A stretch of 64,000 nt of DNA from Cololabis saira (taxonomy: Eukaryota > Chordata > Actinopteri > Beloniformes > Belonidae): positions 30,840,590-30,904,589 of the forward strand of contig NC_084591.1 in NCBI RefSeq assembly GCF_033807715.1, given 5' to 3'. Shown here one piece after another: positions 37,701 through 63,589 of this stretch. The first letter of the stretch is position 1, and the number at the start of each line of letters is the position of its first letter. The notes below the pieces were generated by a model. That model saw nothing but the letters and a program-made list of their open reading frames with translations, did no database searches and was not told the DNA's origin. The position numbers and the translations under genes were made by a program.

Positions 37701-40700
37701 TAAATGAGTACTGTGTTTCCCCTACAGGACTGAAGAAAATCCTGCAGGTGGCTGGGACCGTTCCTGAGCTCTCACAGGGACCAACTCTCACTGACAACAC
37801 TCAAATGAGCTGCTCCGTTTTGCTTAACAAACTCTATGATGACCTGAAGAGTGAAAAAGAGAGGGAAAACTTTAACAAACTATGTGAAGAATATGTTCAG
37901 TGAGTTGATCACCAGCATTTTCTCTTTCTAGAAGTGATTGTCAAAATAAAAGTCATTATCAACAGCTTTAAAAAAATATGTTGCATGAATAATTCTGATC
38001 TTTTTTTTTTTTTTTTTTGCATAGACAACACTTCAACCAGCATGGGTTAGATGGCAAGTTGCATGCCATCCAGACAGTGTCGGTGCTCCTTCAAGGGCCC
38101 AGCGAAGTGGGTAACAGAACTCTGGAAATGTCAGGAATGATGGATGCAGTAATTTCTCTCTGTGCCTCCGAAGATGTAACTCACCAGCAGGTTGCAGTGG
38201 AGGCTCTTATACATGCTGCAGGCAAAGCCAAGAGAGCCTCCTTCATCACAGCCAACGGTGTCGCTCTTCTGAAGGACCTTTACAAGAAAAGCGAGAATGA
38301 CAGGATACGTGTGAGAGCCCTTGTGGTAAGTGTCTCAAGTAGCTGGAGAAAATTACATTTTTAAATATAGTCTGAGTAAAGTAAACATTTAATTTAATTC
38401 TGAGTTTGTCACAAAAGATTTGTAATCAACGGTTCAAATTAAAACAGGCATGAAGTATGTGAAAGCTAGCTTTCAAAATCACAAAAAAATGAGGATGTTT
38501 GTTGACAGATCTCATAGCAGCTTAAATGAAAGGTAAACTGAGCAGTTATTTTTAACAGAACCAAAGCTCTTGGATGTGAAATCCCAGACATGAATTATTT
38601 TGGTCATCTCACAGCTGTCAAATAAGTTTACAACATCATTACATTTTCAAACTTAAACTTTAACAGCGAGGCAAATTTGAAATATTTCAGTGCCAGTGTC
38701 TTAATGACCTTTCCCTGATCTCAGAGCAGCCCTAAAACTCCTGGATAGAAAATTGATTGAAATGCAACAATCTAACTCCATAATCCTGTCCATCTTCATT
38801 CTCAGTCTCTTAATGTCTTTTAGGCAGCTGTTGTGTAACACATATCCATGTAAATCTTTTTATATCCCTTAGTCTGAATCTACGTGAAACTTACAATTTT
38901 ATGTGTGCTATAATGGCAGGGTTTGTGCAAGCTCGGATCAGCAGGAGGGACAGATTTCAGCATGAAGCAGTTTGCAGAGGGATCTACACTCAAGCTTGCC
39001 AAGCAATGCAGGAAGTATGTACCTTATATTAAATCTGGAATATGTGAAGAGATGTGTTACTCTATTTTTAAACGATCTAACTGAAAAAAAAAAAAAAAAA
39101 CAGTTAAACCTTGATTTCATGGCCTGAATATTTAAGTTAGCCTCTTTCTCTCATAGGTGGCTGTGTAATGAGTCTCTTCCCCCAACCTCCCGTCGCTGGT
39201 CTGTGGAAGGTCTCGCCTACCTCACCTTTGATGCTGATGTGAAGGAAGACATGGTGGAAGACAAGAATGCTCTCTTGGCCATGTTTGAATTAGCAAAGGT
39301 TCCAATATTCATTTTATTTATAGAATATATATTTTTTGTGTTTTAGACACAACAACAAAACAAAAAAAACAATTAATAAGCTGGATTCACGACAGATGGT
39401 CTTATTATTTTATATATTTTTAATGCAGTCAGAAGACAAGACTGTGCTCTTCGCTGTGGGCTCAACGTTAGTGAACTGCACAAACAGCTATGATGTGGAG
39501 AAACCAGATCCTCAAATGGTGGAGCTGGCCAAGTATGCAAAGCAGCATGTGCCCGAGGAACATCCAAAGGTACCTTTTTTTTTCTTTTTTTTTTTCTTTG
39601 TTTTTCCTGTCACATAATGTATCTTTAATACAACCCAAACTTTTTCCTATGTCTGTAGGTTTTTTTTCTTTATAAAGTGAATATTTTCCTTTTTATATGT
39701 CAGGATGCATCTTCTTATGTGGAGAAAAGGCTGGTTAAGCTCCTGGAAGCTGGTGTGGTGTCTGCATTGGTGTGTATGGTCAAACAAGAGAGTCCTGCCC
39801 TTACTGAGGCTTGTAAAGAATGTATTGCCAGGTAAATTACAATAAGATAGGTGTTTTACACAGCGTATTATTCCTGTGGATTTTTGCTTAATACACTTTG
39901 TCATGGCAGAGTTTTTTTGGCTGTGGTGGAGCGGCAGGAAGACAGAGGCACAGTTGTGGCCCAGGGTGGAGGAAAGGTAGAACACCATGAAATATGCAGA
40001 CCTTTTCATGCCCACTGATCTACAGTCCTTGTTTCGGGCGGATTAATAATTGATGTTTTGTATTTCACATCTGCAGGCTCTCATCCCGCTTGCAACTGAC
40101 AACACAGATGTAGGAAAAGTCAAAGCTGCACAAGCACTGGCAAAAATAGCCATTACATCTAACCCAGAGATTGCCTTTCCAGGAGAGAGGGTAAACATAC
40201 AGCCAGTAACACAAAGCACTTTAGTCATAAAATCAACTTGAAACCTTTTCTTTTTTTCACTTTGTTTAACCTCTCCTAACATTGTGTTGGCAGATTTATG
40301 AAGTGGTCCGCCCGCTTCTGAACCTTTTAAGTCTTGAGTGCACCTTGCTTCAAAATTTTGAGGCACTCATGGCTCTCACCAACCTCTCCGGCATCAGCGA
40401 AAGACTCAGGTTGGCCACTAGAGGGAACCCTTTACCAAGAAATACACAGACACTAGTCATGTTTTTTGTTTTTTGCTTTTTAAATATTTAATTTAAAGAT
40501 TTCAAGCTCAACTCAATATTTTTTACAATACTGTCAAAATATTACAAATAAAACATTTTCTTCATTTTTTAGGGCAGTGACAAATGAATAGTCCTCATTA
40601 GAACTCAATTATTGTATCAATTCAAATAATACCCTGCCCAGCCATGTAGCATATTTTCAAATGATATTGCTGTCTCAGTTGTGTGATCGTACAAGGCACA

Positions 40701-46774: not shown

Positions 46775-47796
46775 TCACAGCACGATCTTAAAAGAACTGC
46801 AGAGAGATTAAATGTTAATAGGTGTTAGAGCGAGAAAAATTGAGTTTCGTAAAATGTATATGCATTGAAATATTAAGTCGAGATTTTGATTCACCTGACA
46901 AAGTCTGGTGATCTTGAGATGACATGCTGAAACTCTGAGAGGTTCACAGTCCCATCTTTGTCAATGTCTGACTCCTCAAGTATCTAAATAATATACAAGG
47001 GAAACAAAGTTTAGGCCCACAATGCCTCAAGTTAGCACCCTACAACCACATGCTGTTTGAACTTAGCACTATTCCTCCATTTGCCACCAAAGATAAGGAG
47101 CCACATTGAACTCACGTTGCTGATGAGCTGTTTCATCTCTTCGCTGGATAGCCTCGTCTCCTCTGTCTCACCAGTCAAGCGGTTAACCAGCTTCTCCAGA
47201 TCACCACAGTCAAGAGTTCCATCGTCATCAAAGTCTGAAAATGCCAAACTCATCAGTACACAGATTGGCATCGTTACATAACCGGTCGACCAGTGCTTTA
47301 AGTGGGCCGGTACGGAGCAGTACGCAGTACCGGCACTTCTAAATTTTACCCATCAGCGTACCGGAAATTATTTACTGTGTGCGGCGCGTACCGGTACTGT
47401 TCTTCCCAGATTCCCCATCAGTCAGTAACTCCCCCCGATCTCCCCAAAGTCTACAGGTTGGATTTGTTGATTAAGGTGTTTTGATGCTCAAAGCTTGCCG
47501 TACAGACGTAAAGGCGCGCTTGGCCAACCCGCGGCTCGCGTGCCGCATGCGGCTCTTTGGCCGGTGTCATGCGGCTCTTGCAACTTTATTTGATAGATGC
47601 AGTGAAAGACAGACTCGTAGGAAGTGGGTGCAAAATATGCCACAACTGGAATCGTGTGTACGCAAGTCGCCTGCTCATCCCGTTGAGCTAGACGGGCGTG
47701 CTCGCGGTTGTGACGGAAATAAGTTGGAGGGACAAAATGCACGGCCAAACGGAAATATGAAGGTAAACACAGGAGGTTTTTAACAGAGCGGGAGAG

Positions 47797-52440: not shown

Positions 52441-53425
52441 GTTTCATCTGTCCGAATATTGCAGACAACATGTAAGCCCGGTCACCGGTCCTGTTCATAA
52501 TGTTTATGGACAGGATTTCTAGGCGCAGCCAGGGGCCGGAGGGGATCCGGTTTGGGAACCTCAGGATTTCATCTCTGCTTTTTGCAGATGATGTTGTCCT
52601 GTTGGCTTCATCGGACCAGGACCTCCAGCATGTGCTGGGGCGGTTTGAGGCCGAGTGCGACGCGGCAGGGATGAGAATCAGCACCTCCAAAACCGAGGCC
52701 ATGGTTCTCCATCGGGAAAGGGTGGCGTGCCTTCTCCGGGTGGGTGGAGAAGTCCTGCCTCAGGTGGAGGAGTTTCAAGTATCTCGGGGTCTTGTTCACG
52801 AGTGAGGGAACGATGGAGCGTGAGATTGACAGACAGATCGGTGCAGCGTCCGCAGTTATGCGGTCGATGTACCGGACCGTCGTGGTGAAGAAAGAGCTGA
52901 GTCGAAAGGCGAAGCTCTCGATTTACCGGTAAATCTACGCCCCTACCCTCACCTATGGTCATGAACTTTGGGTAGTGACCGAAAGGATTAGATCGCAATA
53001 ATAATAATAGATCGCGGATTAGATCGATACAAGCGGCCGAGATGAGTTTCCTCTGCAGGGTGGCTGGACGCTCCCTTAGAGATAGGGTGAGGAGTTCGGT
53101 CACCCGGGAGGAGCTCGGAGTCGAGCTGCTGCTCCTTCACATTGAGAGGAGTCAGCTGAGGTGGCTTGGGCATCTGTACCGGATGCCTCCTGGACGCCTC
53201 CCTAGGGAGGTGTTCCAGGCATGTCCCTCCGGGAGGAGACCCCGGGGAAGACCCAGGACACGCTGGAGAGACTATGTCTCTCGGCTGGCCTGGGAACGCC
53301 TCGGACTCCCCCCGGAAGAGCTGGAGGAAGTGTCTGGGGTGAAAGAAGTCTGGGCATCTCTGTTGAGACTGCTGCCCCCGCGACCCAGGAACGGATAAAC
53401 GGCAGACAATGGATGGATGGATGGA
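52441..53425 (+). mobile_element. LINE ORF2 fragment, frameshifted, with GGAT tail
   Basis: Reverse-transcriptase sequence including the catalytic FADDVVLLAS box (52500-52805), then FKYLGVLFTSEGTMEREI in another frame, APTLTYGHELWV, and a C-terminal frame at 53042-53398 (VAGRSLRDRVRSS ... RPRGRPRTRWRDYVSRL). It ends in ATGGATGGATGGATGGA. At least two frame breaks and a short insertion near 52998 inactivate it. A very common fish non-LTR family; the clade is not assigned. Confidence 0.85.
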
Positions 53426-55063: not shown

Positions 55064-58000
55064 CTAGGCTCCTTGGTTCGTCTCCCAGTCTGTTGTATCT
55101 GGAATAGGACAGTAAGAATTATTTATAAATAACATGCAGAATTATATGCAGGTGAGATAAAATACAAAATATTTGTATACCTGTCATTTTGGCCCCCTCT
55201 TGGGTCTCGGCTGGAACCCCAGTGCCATATTCATTTACACCAGTGACTCTAAAGAAGTAGATTCTTCCCTCTTCCAGGTCAGACACCTTGTAGGAGGACC
55301 GGCGGCATTTGTCCGTGAGCCTTGTCCACCCCTTTCTGCTGATGTCACGTATGTCAACAAGATAGTGCTTCACCGCGGCTCCTCCCTCGTTCTCTGGGAT
55401 GTCCCAGGTGACCGTGGCAGAGTTCTTGGTCACATCTTTGACAGTTATGTGAGAGGGGGGACCAGGTGAATCCAAAACCCTCACATTTAGGGTTAAAGAT
55501 GCAGATCCAGCATCATTTTGCAGTTTAATTGTGTATTTTCCAGAATCATCACGTGTTGCTTGCTCCACTGTGATGGAGCTGACAGTCCTGCTAGTGTTGA
55601 TAATTCCTCGGACCCTAAGGTCTACGTCTGCTTTCTCCCATGACACAGTGGGAGTGGGTTTGCCTGCAAAAGGCACGGTCAAAGTAAAGGAGCTGTTATC
55701 TTTAACAAGCAGGGTCTTCCTCATCTCAGGGGAAATGTCAAACCTTGGCTTCTCCTCTCTCTCCATGGCAACTTCAGGATCAGTTTCAGGGCTGGGCTCA
55801 CTGATACCGACCTTATTCATGGAGATCACTCTGAAGACATACTCTGCCCCTGTTATGAGTCCATTTACTGTAAACTCTGTCTTATCTGTGTTATGAACAC
55901 CAATTGTCCAGTCTCCCGCGGGTAATTTTTTTAATTCAACTTTGTAACCTGTAACTGGTGCTCCACCATCAAACAGTGGCTTGTTCCATGTCAGAGTGAT
56001 GGAAGACCGAGTTGAATCATTTACAGATGGCTTTGCTGGAGGAGACGGTAGAAATTTTGGATCCTCAGCCAGCGTTAGGGGGCATGGTGGACTGGGTTCA
56101 CTTAGACCACCAGCATTTTCAGCGAAAACTCTGAATTCATACTCGCATCCCTCATGCAAGCAGGAGGCTTTGACTCGGAGGTCATAGACTGTTTTTTTAT
56201 TGACCCTGACCCAACGGACACCCTGCTTCTCCCTTTTCTCTACAATGTAACCACTGATGCGACTGCCACCATCAGAAGCAGGCCTCTTCCAACAGATAGT
56301 CATGGCGTCACTGGTAGCACTTGTAACCTCAACATCTGTGGGAGGAGAGGGGGATGTGTAGGGATCTAGCGCCTTGATTGGTTCACTTTCCAAAATCTCA
56401 CCCTCCCCATATTTGTTCACTGCCTTCACCCTAAAAAGGTATTCATTTCCTCTGACCAGCTTCGTTATCTTACAAGTAGTTGTCAGTATATCCCCATACA
56501 CAAGGGTCCAGGCAACACGACTTGTTTCACACTTCTCAACAATGTAGTACATGATCTCAGAACCACCTGTCTCATGAGGAGCTCCCCAGGACAGGGTGCA
56601 TTTTTCTGCTGACAGCCCAGACACTTCCAGAGGTCCACCAGGAGGACCTGGCCTGTCCAGCACCTTACAGGTGACACACTTAGATATTGTACCACCTGTG
56701 TTCTGCAGGGTCAGAGTATACTGTCCAGAGTCTTTCCTAACAGTCTCTCTGATAACAAGGGAGGTGCATGCTTTTGCTGCAGTTATCTCAACCCTTCCCT
56801 TGCTGCCAATATTTCTTCCATTTTTTGACCAAAAAACTGTTGGGTTAGGGCGGCCTGAGATGGAAGCATCTATTTTAATGAGGTCTCCTGCTTTGACAAC
56901 CAAAACCTGTCTAAACTTGTCATCCATGATCATTTTGGGCGGCTCCACATCATGTTGCACTGTAACCAGTCCAGTGGTTTCAGAAGGTGCACTTAAGAGC
57001 TCAGCTGCATTCTTTGCTACAACACGAAAGTCATACTGTTCACCCTCCGTGAGGCAGGTCACTTCCAAGAAGGTGTCCTGTAAATTTGTGAAGTTGCACT
57101 TCAGCCAGCAGCTATCTGGTAGTTCTTTGCGCTCAACAATGTACCCAGTTATTTTGGCTCCGCCATCATATTCTGGTTTTACCCATGAGAGTGAAACCGA
57201 AGTATTAGTTATATTGGTGACTGTGAGGTTGCCCGGGGGGTCACACTGGTCCCTTGCTGCTACAGGTTCAGACGGATTGCTCCATGGTCCAACACCTGCC
57301 ATATTCTCAGCACAGACCCGGAACTCATATATCAGACCCTGTTCAACACTTGTAACCTTGTATTGGTTCTCTGTCACCGGGTTTCTGTTTAGTTTTGTCC
57401 ACAAAATACTGCTTTGATCTTTGCTTTCAATATGATAACCCACAATAGGGCTCCCACCATCACTTTCTGGTTTGCTCCACGTAATGACCACTGCAGACTT
57501 TGAGGCCTGTATAATATAAACATTTGTTGGTGGAAAAGGTGGTTTGAAAGGATACTGGGCAACAACGGATTCGGTTTCCACAAACTGGCTCTTCCCATAA
57601 CGATTCTCTGCAGCAACACGAAACTGATATTCAGTGCCCTGGGTCAATCGGTTGATTTTGATGGATAATCTTGCCACTGTAGCTGAAACAGTATGCCATA
57701 TTATGCTGCTTGTATCTCTTTTCTCTACAACATAATTAGTGATTTCACACCCCCCAGTGTGAAGTGGGGGTTGCCATGACAGAGAGACAAAGTCAGCACT
57801 CAAATCATCCACACTGAGGTCAGTTGGTGGTCCAGGTCTTTCAAAAACATTCACAAAGATTTCAGCTGATGCCGTTCCAACAGAGTTGGTCATAGTCACT
57901 TCATACACGCCGATATCAGTCCTGGCTGCATCCTTGACAGTCAGTTGAGATACTGAGTCAGATGTCTGTACATTTACCCTGCTTGTCTCTTTCAGTAGTT

Positions 58001-61000
58001 TACCCTCTTTTTTCCAAACTACTGTAGGTAGTGGCAGACCCTTGACTGGAACATCAATCTTCAAATCATTCCCTGCCTTCACACTGAACGTGTTGGACAG
58101 AAGAGTAATGACAGGCTCCGAACTTGTATCCATAACTATAACAGGTGCCAACAGGGACTTTGGTTCACTCTTCCCTTTTTCATTGACAGCACTCACTCTG
58201 AAGAAATACTCATTTCCTTTAGTCAGCCCATCAATAGTCATCTCCAGTACCTTACTCTCTGAATATTTTGTCCATGTTTCATCACCCTTGGCTTGCATTT
58301 CTACAATGTAACGTGAGATTTTGCTTCCTCCATCATGAGCAGGCTTCTCCCAAGTAAGTCTTGCATTATTGGAAGTGACATTACAAAGTGTGATTTTACC
58401 AGGAGGTGGGGGAGCCTCAGAGACTTTGACAGGCTCCATGGTCTCTACTGGTACTCCAGTGCCAAACTCATTTACAGCCAGGACACGGAAGTAATAGAAG
58501 CATCCTTCCTGTACATTTTCAATCTTATATGAAGTCCTCATACAGTTGCTACAGACGCTTGTGAATGCCTTCCTGGACTCTTCTCGCTTTTCCACAATGT
58601 AGTGTGAAATATTTGATCCTCCATCAATAAGGGGTGATTCCCAGGAGATGGACACAGAGTCCCTCTTTACATCTTTTACTTCTAAATTTGTTGGTGCACT
58701 GGGAGAATCCATCACTCTAACATTGATGAATGCTGATTTGGAGCCACTACAGTTCTCAGCAGTCAACACATACTTTCCACAATCATTTCTGTTAACATTT
58801 TCTATCAGTAAGACGGTATAGGAGCTTGTTACCTCAATTTGGGCACCCTCACTTAGACAGCCACCTTCCTTTGACCATTTAACTATTGGGTCTGGCCTTC
58901 CCCTGATGGTGACAAAGAGACGTAGGGTTGAGCAGGCTCTAACATTAATGATTTTCCTTAAGGAACTTTCCAGCTCAATCTCAGGTGCCTCAACTTTCTC
59001 AGTCGGTATCACAGATCCAGGCAGATCCACATGTTCTCCGACTCCAGCCCCATTTATTGCACGTATACGAAAACTGTACTCTGCATTTTCCGTTAGTCCT
59101 TTGACGGTGTAGTTTGTGTCTTTTACACCTGTGCTAGGTGTGCATGTAATCCATTCATCTTGTGTGGCTCCTTTCATCTCAACTACAAATCCACAGATGG
59201 CTGCTCCACCATCATAGATGGGTTTTGACCAAGTCAATGACGTGGTACTACTGGAGTAGTCTGTCACTTTGGGGTTGGTGGGTGGACCAGGGGGGTAAAC
59301 AGCTTCACATACTTTTATATACTCACTCGGTTCACTGGGTGCTCCCACACCAGCTGCATTTTCTGCAAGGACTCTAAACTGATAATAATGTCCATTTGTG
59401 AGCCCTGTGCATCGGAATCGCAAATCATTAAGCCTTCGTTTGTTGCATTTCGTCCATCTGATACCATCTTTGTCACATTTCTCCAGGATGTAGCCATCAA
59501 TTTCTGAGCCCCCATCACTCTCAGGCCTTTCCCATGTTAGCAGTACAGAGTCATCAGTCACAGCACCGGCTGTAGGAGTAGACGGCGCGCTAGGTGTTGT
59601 GAAAGGATTTTGTGCAATGAAGGGCTCTGATTCAAGAAAGTCACCAACACCAAATCTATTCACGGCAGCAATTCTGAATATGTATTCTTTGCCAGGCCCC
59701 AGTTTTGACACTTTGTAACTCATGGCTTCAATGTTAGAATCTACCCCTGTCCATGTAACACGGCTGGTCTCCCTTTTTTCAATAACAAAGTGGGTGACAG
59801 GGGCACCACCATCATTTAGAGGAGGGTTCCAGTGAAGATGACACTTCTCTGCACTCACAACTTTCACCTTTAGATCTCCATCAGGAGGACCAGGTCTGTC
59901 TAATACTTTCACATTAACTGGAATAGATATACTTCCACCAATGTTGGTGAGGCTTAACACAAAGCGTCCTCCATCTACACGTGTGCAGTCCCTGACAGTG
60001 AGCGTTGTATGGGTGAGGGTGTTTTTGAACTCCATTCTTGGTGTAACTTTGTCAATCTCCCTTCCGTCTTTCATCCATATCACTTCTGGAAGAGGTTTCC
60101 CAAAGTAATCGGCATCAATAATAAACGTCTCCCCAGACTGAACAGCAGTAGTAATCTTGTACTTAGGGTCAATGACAGCAGTGGGTGCTTCAATCACATC
60201 TTGAGCCAGGATGATTACACCTTCAGAGGGTGTACTCCAAACACCAGCACCATTCTTCGCGGTTACCCTAAACTCATACCTTTGCCCCTCTGTCAGCCCT
60301 GTGACCGGGAATAGATTCTCAATAACATTAGTGAAATTTGCCTTCATCCATCTGCCATCTGGGAGCTCCTTCTTTTCAACAACATACCCTGTAATACTAC
60401 TTCCACCATCATACTTGGGTTTTTCCCATTGGAGTGTAATGGTCTCTCTGGTTACAACGACAGCTTCAGGTCTACCAGGGGGATCACAGCGGTCTCTTGC
60501 CACATAGCATTCAGATGTTTTACTAGACGGACTGAGTCCAGCAATATTTTCAGCAAAGACTCTGAATTCATACTCAATGCCTTCCTCCAAGCCGCTTGTT
60601 TTGAAGCGAGTATCAGTTATAACAAACTTGTTTAGTTTGGTCCATAAAATACTGTTCTTCTCTTTACGTTCAAGGTGATACCCAGTGATGGGGCTGCCTC
60701 CGTCTTTGACTGGAGGCTCCCACTCAACCACCATGCTGTATTTTGTCACAGTAGACACCCAGGGGGTACCAGGAGCAGCAGGCACACTGAATGGATATTG
60801 TGCCATTACAGCTGGAGAGGTGATTGCAGAACTTTTTCCATACCTATTTTCCGCAAACAGTCTGAATTGGTATTCACTTCCTGTCTTCAGCTTGGTAACC
60901 TTGATTGTGGTTCTCACCGTTGTTGCTGACACAATCTGCCAATCTGTGCTTGTAGTTTCCCGTTTCTCAACTACGTAGTTGTCTAGCTGACAGCCACCTG

Positions 61001-62749
61001 TATATTCGGGTGGCTCCCATGAGATGATGGCATAGTCAGAACTAATCTCATCGATCCTCACAGGCCCTTTGGGTGGATCTGGCTTTTCAAGAACAACCAC
61101 GGTGACTTCTCCAGTGAATTTTCCAGCATCGTTACTTGCTGTGACAGAGTACTGACCAGAGTGGTCCCTTGCAGCATGTCTGATATGAAGGACAGTTAAT
61201 GACGCTTTAGTTAAAATCTCTAGTCTTGATGTCTCTTTAACTGCCTGACCATCTCTTCTCCATTCAATCTTTGGTGTTGGGTGCCCAGCCACAGGGATCT
61301 CTACTTTCAGATCTTGGCCATTCTTTACCGTGAATGTGGTAAAAGTTATCTGCAGTTCAGGCTTGACAGCATTTTCTTTTTTTGTAGCAGAGGCGGTCTG
61401 GACTTGGAGCTGGTTTCCTTGATCTTCTGCAGAAGAAGGCTGACCTGGGTTGGAGAAGTATAAGTATTAAATAAAGTATGTCTTTTGAAAAAAGAAAATC
61501 CCTTCAGAAAGACAATCTGAATGTCAAACACACAATATTCATTTTGAAATACGGATGTATTATTTCACTGCCAGTGAGAGCAATGGTCAGCTCTCTTTGT
61601 AAAGTAAAGAGAACATTTGTAGAGAGAAAGGTCAACATTAACAAAGGTGGAAACAAGAATTCATTTTTGGTGTTGATTGGGACCACTTTTCTAACAATGT
61701 TCAAATATAGCATGTGCGTGCGTGCGTGTGCACTCTTTTATGGAGTATCTGAGCATTTCATCTGTCAAAAAATGTCATAAATAAATATGTCAAAAGCATA
61801 ACATTTCTTAGGGATTTGAAAATACAATTTTGACAGTAATATAAATTGTATGACTACCATTTGAATCAAGGTACTGTTAATATATATAACAAAAGGCTTT
61901 ACAAATGTATAGAATAGAATATAAATGCTTTATTTATCCCATGTGGTGCAAAAAGCTAGGATGAAAAATGTAATATGGAAAAAACAAGTTTGAGATATGT
62001 ACGGACAAATATCTGTACAAATATAAATAGCTGTAACAATCTATGGTCTTACACTGTCACACTTACACATATGACTAACGTGTACATGATTTTATGTGTA
62101 GAAAATACTGTAATGTTAATTTAAAATATCTATTAGTGGGTGAGTGCCCAGGATACCTTGGACAAAAGGTCTGGAGGATGATGAAGCAGCTGCTGTGAGC
62201 TCTGCATCAGACTCCTGTGTCGTGTTTCTATTTGGAGCTTGAGCGTTTGGTCCCGCTTCATCTTCCACCTACAATAGGGAATGGGTAAAAGAAAAATGAA
62301 AGCGAAACGTGTTCCCTTTGAGAAATCAAAGGCAAGCCAACACAAAATGTTTTCCTTTTTTTCTTGTTCTAAGCAGAAATTCCACATTAAATGGTGTAAT
62401 CCATAGCCCCTTTACAACTGTGTTTGGGGAAACTTTCCAACATGTTTGGAAGCCATCTGATTGTTGGTAACAGCAACACTTGACAGTGCTAAAAATAGAT
62501 TTAAGATCCTGCAGAGCTGACTGCTATCTGCTTTGCCAAACACAGGAATGTATATTATTATCTTACTCTCAAAGTTCTAATTAAATAGTTCACTTTAAGA
62601 AATCATCAAAAGGAACAATCAATAAAATAAAAAATAGTTATGACACTACCTGAAATTATTCTATACTATGCTACAATACATTTGAAGACACAAAATGTCA
62701 AGTAACCAATGTCAAGCTCAGCTTTACTTACAGTTCTGGTTGTCTCCAT
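55064..62749 (-). CDS. Stand-alone titin A-band (C-zone)-like protein, 4 exons, complete
   Basis: Exons: 62749-62732, 62268-62157, 61444-55181, 55098-55064, all GT-AG and in frame. Total 6,429 nt, 2,142 aa. The 6,264-nt third exon carries every domain. The N-terminus (METTRT, then an acidic/Ser-rich linker to about residue 71) has no signal peptide or membrane segment. Six Ig and 15 FN3 domains follow in the order Ig-FFF-Ig-FFF-Ig-FF, Ig-FFF-Ig-FFF-Ig-F, then an 11-residue end DTTDWETNQGA. This is the 11-domain super-repeat of the titin C-zone, the thick-filament segment that contacts myosin and MyBP-C. FN3 hallmarks such as DGGSPITGYHLERK, YEFRVFAENIAG and ALTWxxP-type strands recur. Kinase, PEVK, Z-disc and M-band parts are absent. 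A sarcomeric thick-filament role is inferred. I know no named gene with this exact layout; igfn1 or myosin-binding proteins fit the domain order less well. Confidence 0.88.
62489..62498. promoter_or_regulatory. MEF2 site in intron 1 of the titin-like gene
   Basis: CTAAAAATAG is a perfect match to the MEF2 consensus YTAWWWWTAR. It lies 234 bp downstream of the exon 1 donor, consistent with a muscle gene, but a match this short can arise by chance. Confidence 0.35.
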
Positions 62750-62970: not shown

Positions 62971-63589
62971 AGAATTAGTTTAGCCCATGTGGGTCAACTA
63001 TGAAAAACTGGAAAGTTACTCAAGGGTTAGATATTGTGCCCCCACTATTATGTGAAATTAAAGGATCACATAACTTTACAAGTCAGTTGCCTTCTAATTA
63101 TATTTGAATATGTGTGTAGTCATGCTAGGGTATATAAGTGAGTTGTCCAGAGAAAAGCAATCAATATACTATTATATATAGGGTGTTTAAGTATAAGGTC
63201 CGAGTGGGACTAGGAGTTTCATGTCCAAGACCAGAGCACTTCTTTTCAACATGGTAATAACTGAAAAATTAATCAAACAAGTTCTTACAATTCTGTAGTT
63301 TGAGTTAGGAGTTGTATCCATATTTCTTTTTTTATAGTAGAGGAATGTTTCACTACAGCTGAAGTGTTTCTAAGTATGATCTTATTTTCAGTGGACTTTT
63401 CAGTGAACATGAGCATTAAACCCACTTTAGCTGGTGAGGTTTTGACAGTTCACTTCACATTGTTTAGTCTTGAGGAGCTTCTCTCACTTGCAATTTAAGT
63501 AGGCTTCATTGGGTAATGAATAGACATTTTAGACCTATCATTTAGATTGTAATAATATATTGAAGTTATTAAAGAACTTGCACTCCCCC
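62971..63589. other. Upstream flank of the titin-like gene, no gene seen
   Basis: AT-rich, without a recognisable frame. A plus-strand GGTATATAAG near 63129 has no coding sequence after it. Confidence 0.4.

Follow-up and report, generated by a model that had tools for sequence, protein, structure and literature searches.

The gene referred to here as mini-titin lies on the minus strand of a 64-kb window (the whole stretch of DNA that was analysed). It consists of four exons within 62749-55064, which are joined in frame:

62749..62732, minus strand: exon 1, ATG and six residues; donor GTAAGT
62268..62157, minus strand: exon 2, remainder of a unique, poorly conserved N-tail; acceptor ..TTGTAG, donor GTATCC
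61444..55181, minus strand: exon 3 (giant exon), 6,264 nt with all 21 Ig/FN3 domains; acceptor ..AACCCAG, donor GTATAC
55098..55064, minus strand: exon 4, a new short C-tail; acceptor ..TTCCAG, stop TAG

All introns begin with GT and end with AG. Joining the exons gave 6,429 nt with the sole stop at the end, encoding 2,142 residues. The first-pass annotation had described a gene with its own start and stop exons, in-frame splice joins and a product of this length, and its figures were reproduced exactly. One open frame of 2,115 codons contains the whole of exon 3. The C-tail encoded by exon 4 reads ..TDTTDWETNQGA, its D being common to exons 3 and 4. C-tail ends matching a loose pattern numbered 66, including 2 of another kind, and the commonest was TDTTDWETNPGA (n=15). 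Spliced N-termini of the exon-1 type are also present in records P0005, P0009, P0024 and P0058.

A profile search of the window located a UNC45-central domain at 37999-38364 (2e-17) and an EF-hand at 47032-47352 (E 0.007, under the Pfam cut-off). Among the neighbours proposed earlier, unc45a is borne out by the first of these, and cib1 is weakly supported by the sub-cut-off EF-hand; rccd1 was not confirmed. No RNA family reached the Rfam gathering score in the 64-kb window. A further domain is found in the window:

2226-2918: furin-type P-domain

The 21 Ig/FN3 domains of the mini-titin protein correspond to positions 4-11, 1-11 and 1-2 of an 11-domain unit. Matched domain by domain, they are arranged as follows:

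58995..61364, minus strand: domains matching titin C6.4 to C6.11 (Ig-FFF-Ig-FFF)
55755..58994, minus strand: domains matching titin C7.1 to C7.11 (a whole 11-domain super-repeat)
55182..55754, minus strand: domains matching titin C8.1 and C8.2 (Ig-F)

The array is made of the 11-domain super-repeats of the C-zone, with 20/21 domains matching the collinear titin domain. The earlier description as two C-zone super-repeats nearly holds: the type is right, and the 21 domains are one below 22. The Z-disc, I-band and PEVK parts of titin are absent, the gene beginning 70 residues ahead of C6.4; the kinase and M-band part is absent as well, the gene stopping about 12 residues past C8.2. At least 25 Pfam families matched the protein, headed by fn3 (735 bits), the DSCAM FN3 model (369) and I-set (313). 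Other families above cut-off, among them the purple-acid-phosphatase N-terminal domain and tissue factor, we take to be cross-hits of Ig/FN3 folds. Neither a kinase domain nor any domain added beyond the titin array was found among the 25 families listed. The Pfam listing and the gene ends thus agree with the first reading of titin A-band-type Ig/FN3 domains without Z-disc, PEVK, kinase or M-band parts. The best PDB matches were titin C-zone chains at 1,543 and 1,424 bits, scores that exclude chance similarity. An identity as MyBP-C or a MyBP-C-like protein, which had been held possible, was rejected. The best MyBP-C chain scored 232 bits against 1,543 for titin, the domains number 21 and not 10-11, and the domains of the protein are a collinear copy of titin C6.4-C8.2 (repeat numbers deduced).

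The central titin C-zone is encoded by one long exon (PMC10665226, available part). With a clupeiform titin-like protein as query, 23 open frames of 5,618-5,718 residues were obtained, which are taken to be the giant A-band exon of titin. They contain 58 domains in P0122, P0127, P0134 and P0137, where the annotation is clean, and 59 matches in P0139. When the window protein, from residues 61-70 to 2131-2134, was aligned with these frames, the final register was best in 23/23, with 2-16 residues left. Identity in this register was 60-68% in 15/23 frames and 51-55% in 8/23; other registers gave at most 52%. One by one, 20/21 mini-titin domains best matched the collinear domain among the last 21 of the giant exon. 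The single exception, at 60491-60186 on the minus strand, prefers C5.7 (350 vs 340 for its collinear partner). The two giant exons also have splice donor and phase in common, titin reading ..EGTKIT/G and mini-titin ..EGAKMT/D (slash at the junction). Beyond the common donor, Megalops titin (P0099) reads EKPSPPAKLG and mini-titin ends after TTDWETNQGA, exon 4 standing in place of titin's next exon. The collinearity of the last 21 domains, the final register in 23/23 frames and the common donor together indicate that mini-titin duplicates the 3' third of the giant A-band exon in titin; its first exons and its short tail are new. This one-to-one domain match, the final register and the splice donor common with the titin giant exon are new here. 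Comparison of the two exons suggests that the 3' end of the titin exon was copied as DNA, splice donor included. The 5' cut would have fallen inside the giant exon, whose shortened end would then have acquired an acceptor and a pair of small first exons; the tail would be new. The repeat numbers C6.4-C8.2 are deduced from the 58 domains beginning at position 11 and from the mouse C1-C2 exons, which are exons 305-325 (PMC5648799, available part).

To place the gene relative to titin, a 30-row IQ-TREE phylogeny was built, in which the group labels rest on few named rows (Dissostichus, Megalops, Labeo, Acnodon, Xenopus and hagfish). The acanthomorph mini-titin form was recovered as one clade (100/100). 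Together with four giant exons of titin and the salmonid/pike forms it makes up a larger group (100/99), which in turn lies inside presumed teleost titin (100/100). A single clade of the 13 presumed teleost titin rows excluding mini-titin was rejected (AU p 1.7e-38). By these branches and this test the gene is placed as a paralogue descended from within vertebrate titin, and it appears nested inside bony-fish titin. Over C3-C6 the four giant exons cluster with a titin fragment named as Dissostichus mawsoni (100/100), which indicates that they are of acanthomorph type; titin's own exon appears to persist there in separate records. The acanthomorph form joined the salmonid/pike forms in FastTree (1.0) and in IQ-TREE (71/62). 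An alternative clade of the acanthomorph form with acanthomorph titin was not rejected (AU p 0.33), and grouping of the salmonid/pike forms with acanthomorph titin was rejected (p 5e-6). The best 120 matches of a further protein search added one new protein only, a Dissostichus eleginoides titin piece. These results are consistent with a scenario in which, in an early euteleost or acanthomorph, a segment of titin was copied to a new location and has been retained there. A wider reading is put forward tentatively, as possible but doubtful: the giant exon may repeatedly have been a source of free-standing thick-filament modules. These would comprise the two-repeat acanthomorph form (C6.4-C8.2), a 22- or 32-domain salmonid/pike/mudminnow form (C6.8-C8.7) and perhaps an exact three-repeat herring/anchovy form (C3.4-C6.3), each of which would act on myosin filaments in trans, tuning them as a third titin without anchors.

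The protein search with mini-titin gave 889 matches, of which the best 120 were taken. A best local match at least 70% identical to the joined window protein was found in 94/173 retrieved proteins. A search for fish orthologues had been suggested as a check, and its outcome was the opposite of an absence of orthologues. Of the 94 relatives, 69 are 2,100-2,148 residues long and 88 are 2,030-2,150. In this latter class all 21 domains are kept in 86/88 records and 20 in the other 2; in 50/88 all 21 domains best match the collinear titin domain, and in 36/88 20 of the 21 do so. The window protein belongs to this acanthomorph family, with 21 domains C6.4-C8.2, an N-tail of its own and a short C-tail. 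Its closest relative among the matches listed is from the needlefish Xenentodon cancila (92% identity over 89% of the query). Named titin-like relatives, mostly predicted proteins, include those of Embiotoca, Seriola, Perca, Gadus, Gasterosteus, Xiphophorus, Syngnathus, Solea, Nothobranchius and Oryzias, which we take to be acanthomorphs; the databases name these genes 'titin' or 'titin-like'. No zebrafish row appeared in the best 120 matches of any of three protein searches, in which many rows carry no species name. Over 600 sampled pairs from 89 sequences, mean identity was 81% in the domains and 41.5% in the N-tail (residues 1-70). The mean within mini-titin is thus 81% vs 89% within titin, for species sets that differ. 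The proposal of a separate gene is supported by its own ends and by its conservation in other fishes; judged from these proteins, it is a conserved gene across many fishes, many of them spiny-finned.

Evidence on transcription comes from 32 orthologues tagged 'lgn', a tag taken to mark public read assemblies. At the 3' end, 24/32 run from the giant exon into the intron; the 'lgn' records are therefore not spliced by prediction. The spliced last-exon tail is present in the remaining 8/32 (P0005, P0009, P0024, P0058, P0076, P0085, P0089 and P0100), of which 6 start at the exon-1 methionine and 2 inside exon 2. Their contigs are 6,485-7,429 bases long, little above coding length. Such spliced records on short contigs fit mature mRNA and indicate, indirectly, that mini-titin is transcribed. 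A scan with the MEF2 consensus gave two weak candidate sites near the start of the gene:

62489..62498, no strand assigned: MEF2-like site CTAAAAATAG, in mini-titin intron 1
63172..63181, no strand assigned: MEF2-like site TTATATATAG, about 420 bases upstream of the ATG

MEF2-like matches in the whole window number 24 vs 8.6 expected, and are equally common away from the mini-titin gene. At the protein level, two salmon 'titin-like' peptides from proteomics (PMC12413489, available part) were found in none of the proteins compared. Icefish and horse-mackerel proteomics report 'titin-like' matches that could not be linked to the mini-titin gene (PMC9330239, PMC6473766, available parts).

Mini-titin is best explained as an intact stand-alone copy of 21 consecutive titin domains, and on balance its protein probably attaches to myosin filaments in their C-zone, in 43-nm register, beside titin and untied to it. 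The chain would run along the thick filament for about 80 nm as an unanchored C-zone strand and modulate myosin heads and tails locally. Being short and lacking anchors, it may bind the filament with low affinity. The super-repeat positions have been placed structurally (PMC10665186, available part), and conserved surfaces are carried by the position-1 Ig and the position-7 FN3 (PMC10665226, available part). Positions 1, 6 and 7 each occur twice in mini-titin, which also contains two repeat borders. Repeat-invariant titin residues are kept at 0.78-0.99 per domain. For positions 1 and 6 retention is 0.99 in either copy, and for positions 2, 4, 10 and 11 it also reaches 0.98-0.99 in one copy each; as these high values extend outside the binding positions, they show that the array has been conserved and do not mark a binding site. 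The position-7 surface motif is LPDGR-x5-FTN-xx-D/E (PMC10665226, available part). In its strict form it is whole in the first copy in 69/89 mini-titin sequences and in the second, altered copy in 0/89. Neither place has it whole in acanthomorph titin (0/10 each), one reason being that titin has LPNGR there. The position-4 Igs (50% and 60% to titin) and one position-8 Ig (55%) have diverged strongly; the most diverged mini-titin domain is the first Ig, now the end of the chain (50%). In the available part of Tamborrini et al. (PMC10665186), no direct contact between titin and MyBP-C was observed in relaxed muscle, and the MyBP-C side of the proposal is therefore weak.

Other roles were weighed against binding along the C-zone. 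The protein might be active outside the sarcomere C-zone, for instance in non-muscle or smooth-muscle cells, or during development as a soluble decoy that partners of titin or myosin would bind. The new N- and C-tails could recruit new partners, and the C-tail is well kept; the domain array, however, is fully retained, with no added domain among the 25 Pfam families listed, and such a role is considered improbable. Slightly less probable still is a true ruler in trans, by which mini-titin would help to set thick-filament length or a C-zone scaffold during assembly, as titin C1-C2 does. In mice whose titin has 2,177 residues deleted, each half filament is about two 43-nm steps shorter (PMC5648799, available part). 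The 2,142 residues of mini-titin are close to the length of that deletion, and the domain order is strictly kept in 86/88 records. Rulers, however, are thought to need continuity between anchors, and the mini-titin chain has none. A transcribed relic, its function invisible to selection, would agree with a divergence above that of titin (81% vs 89% mean identity, in different species sets), but it is very unlikely for a 6.3-kb open frame with all 21 domains in 86/88 records. That the exons are an annotation fragment of a longer titin transcript, as the database name 'titin-like' and the splice donor common with titin could suggest, hardly merits credence given the gene's own start and stop exons, the spliced records on 6.5-7.4 kb contigs, the separate group formed by titin giant exons with their own C6-C8 (anchored by the Dissostichus titin fragment) and the presence of unc45a in the same window.

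The preferred reading, a free copy of C-zone repeats beside titin, was compared with known systems. Mini-titin resembles the giant exon of the titin C-zone in its 11-domain super-repeat, in the order of its domains (20/21 best match C6.4-C8.2) and in its 3' donor. Unlike titin, it is without Z-disc, I-band, PEVK, kinase, P-zone and M-band parts, has its own ends and shares the window with unc45a. The invertebrate mini-titins (twitchin, projectin, kettin) are shorter titin relatives on thick filaments, but they are separate families, several of them with a kinase; among the retrieved proteins, those from named invertebrates show 28-34% identity. Like MyBP-C, which is placed at super-repeat borders, mini-titin is built of Ig/FN3 domains, but MyBP-C has 10-11 and mini-titin 21. 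Cronos titin (PMC4720518), an A-band to M-band isoform from an internal promoter, is likewise a short titin product without the Z-disc half. It is made by the titin gene, however, and retains the M-band end, whereas mini-titin is a separate gene without that end. In the Ttn deltaC1-2 mouse the two deleted repeats (2,177 residues) are about the size of the whole mini-titin (PMC5648799, available part); there the deletion is within titin, whereas mini-titin is a free copy of other repeats.

A description of a stand-alone gene was not found, by title or start of abstract, among the top 10 to 20 matches listed per search of the open-licence literature, a body outside which most subscription papers lie. 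A titin-evolution survey covering eel, zebrafish and fugu gives two tandem titin genes in teleosts, between Wnt and Hox clusters, and in its available part states that no titin copy remains from the teleost genome duplication (PMC12198301). A word search of its main text found titin-like, unc45 and cib1 absent. A second paper also gives two teleost titin genes (PMC12241362, available part). The novelty of mini-titin is titin's C-zone as a gene of its own, beyond the two titin genes described for teleosts, and it would amend the published teleost count of two tandem genes (PMC12198301, available part). Titin is considered to measure thick filaments by virtue of being one continuous end-to-end chain. 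In mini-titin, a natural, conserved gene with about two C-zone repeats and no anchors, the repeat is set apart from such a chain. If placed along myosin filaments, mini-titin would be a natural test of how titin measures them.

Coding stretches elsewhere in the window included the following:
2226-2918, furin-type P-domain coding stretch
37999-38364, UNC45-central coding stretch
The genes to which these two stretches belong are likewise close together at human 15q26. The stretch 52476-52805, about 2.3 kb from the 3′ end of the mini-titin gene, encodes part of a reverse transcriptase (RVT_1) from a LINE-like element, and the sequence as far as 53398 looks like a continuation of this element. The MEF2-like pattern YTAWWWWTAR occurred 24 times in the whole window against 8.6 expected from shuffles; the excess is probably due to AT-rich non-coding stretches.

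Titin-like proteins of salmonids, Esox and Umbra (P0002, P0003, P0111-P0113, P0115 and P0117) span C6.8-C8.7 (titin C-zone super-repeat and position, repeat numbers inferred) and have similar C-termini (..CVDT..). Their start points vary from record to record. Domain annotation, which covered five of the seven, gave 22 domains each for P0111, P0113 and P0115 and 32 each for P0002 and P0003, with C7.4-C8.2 present twice in both of the latter. The clupeiform proteins P0050 (Alosa) and P0065 (Engraulis) are both exactly 3,267 residues long and share an identical set of 33 domains, C3.4-C6.3, corresponding to three super-repeats; the titin frame P0077 groups with them. These two proteins represent either another free-standing form or matching fragments of titin annotation.

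One position-7 motif has drifted to HPDTR in the acanthomorph titin giant exons P0125, P0127 and P0130, whereas the first position-7 domain of the free-standing mini-titin retains LPDGR, as if an older surface had been preserved in the free copy.
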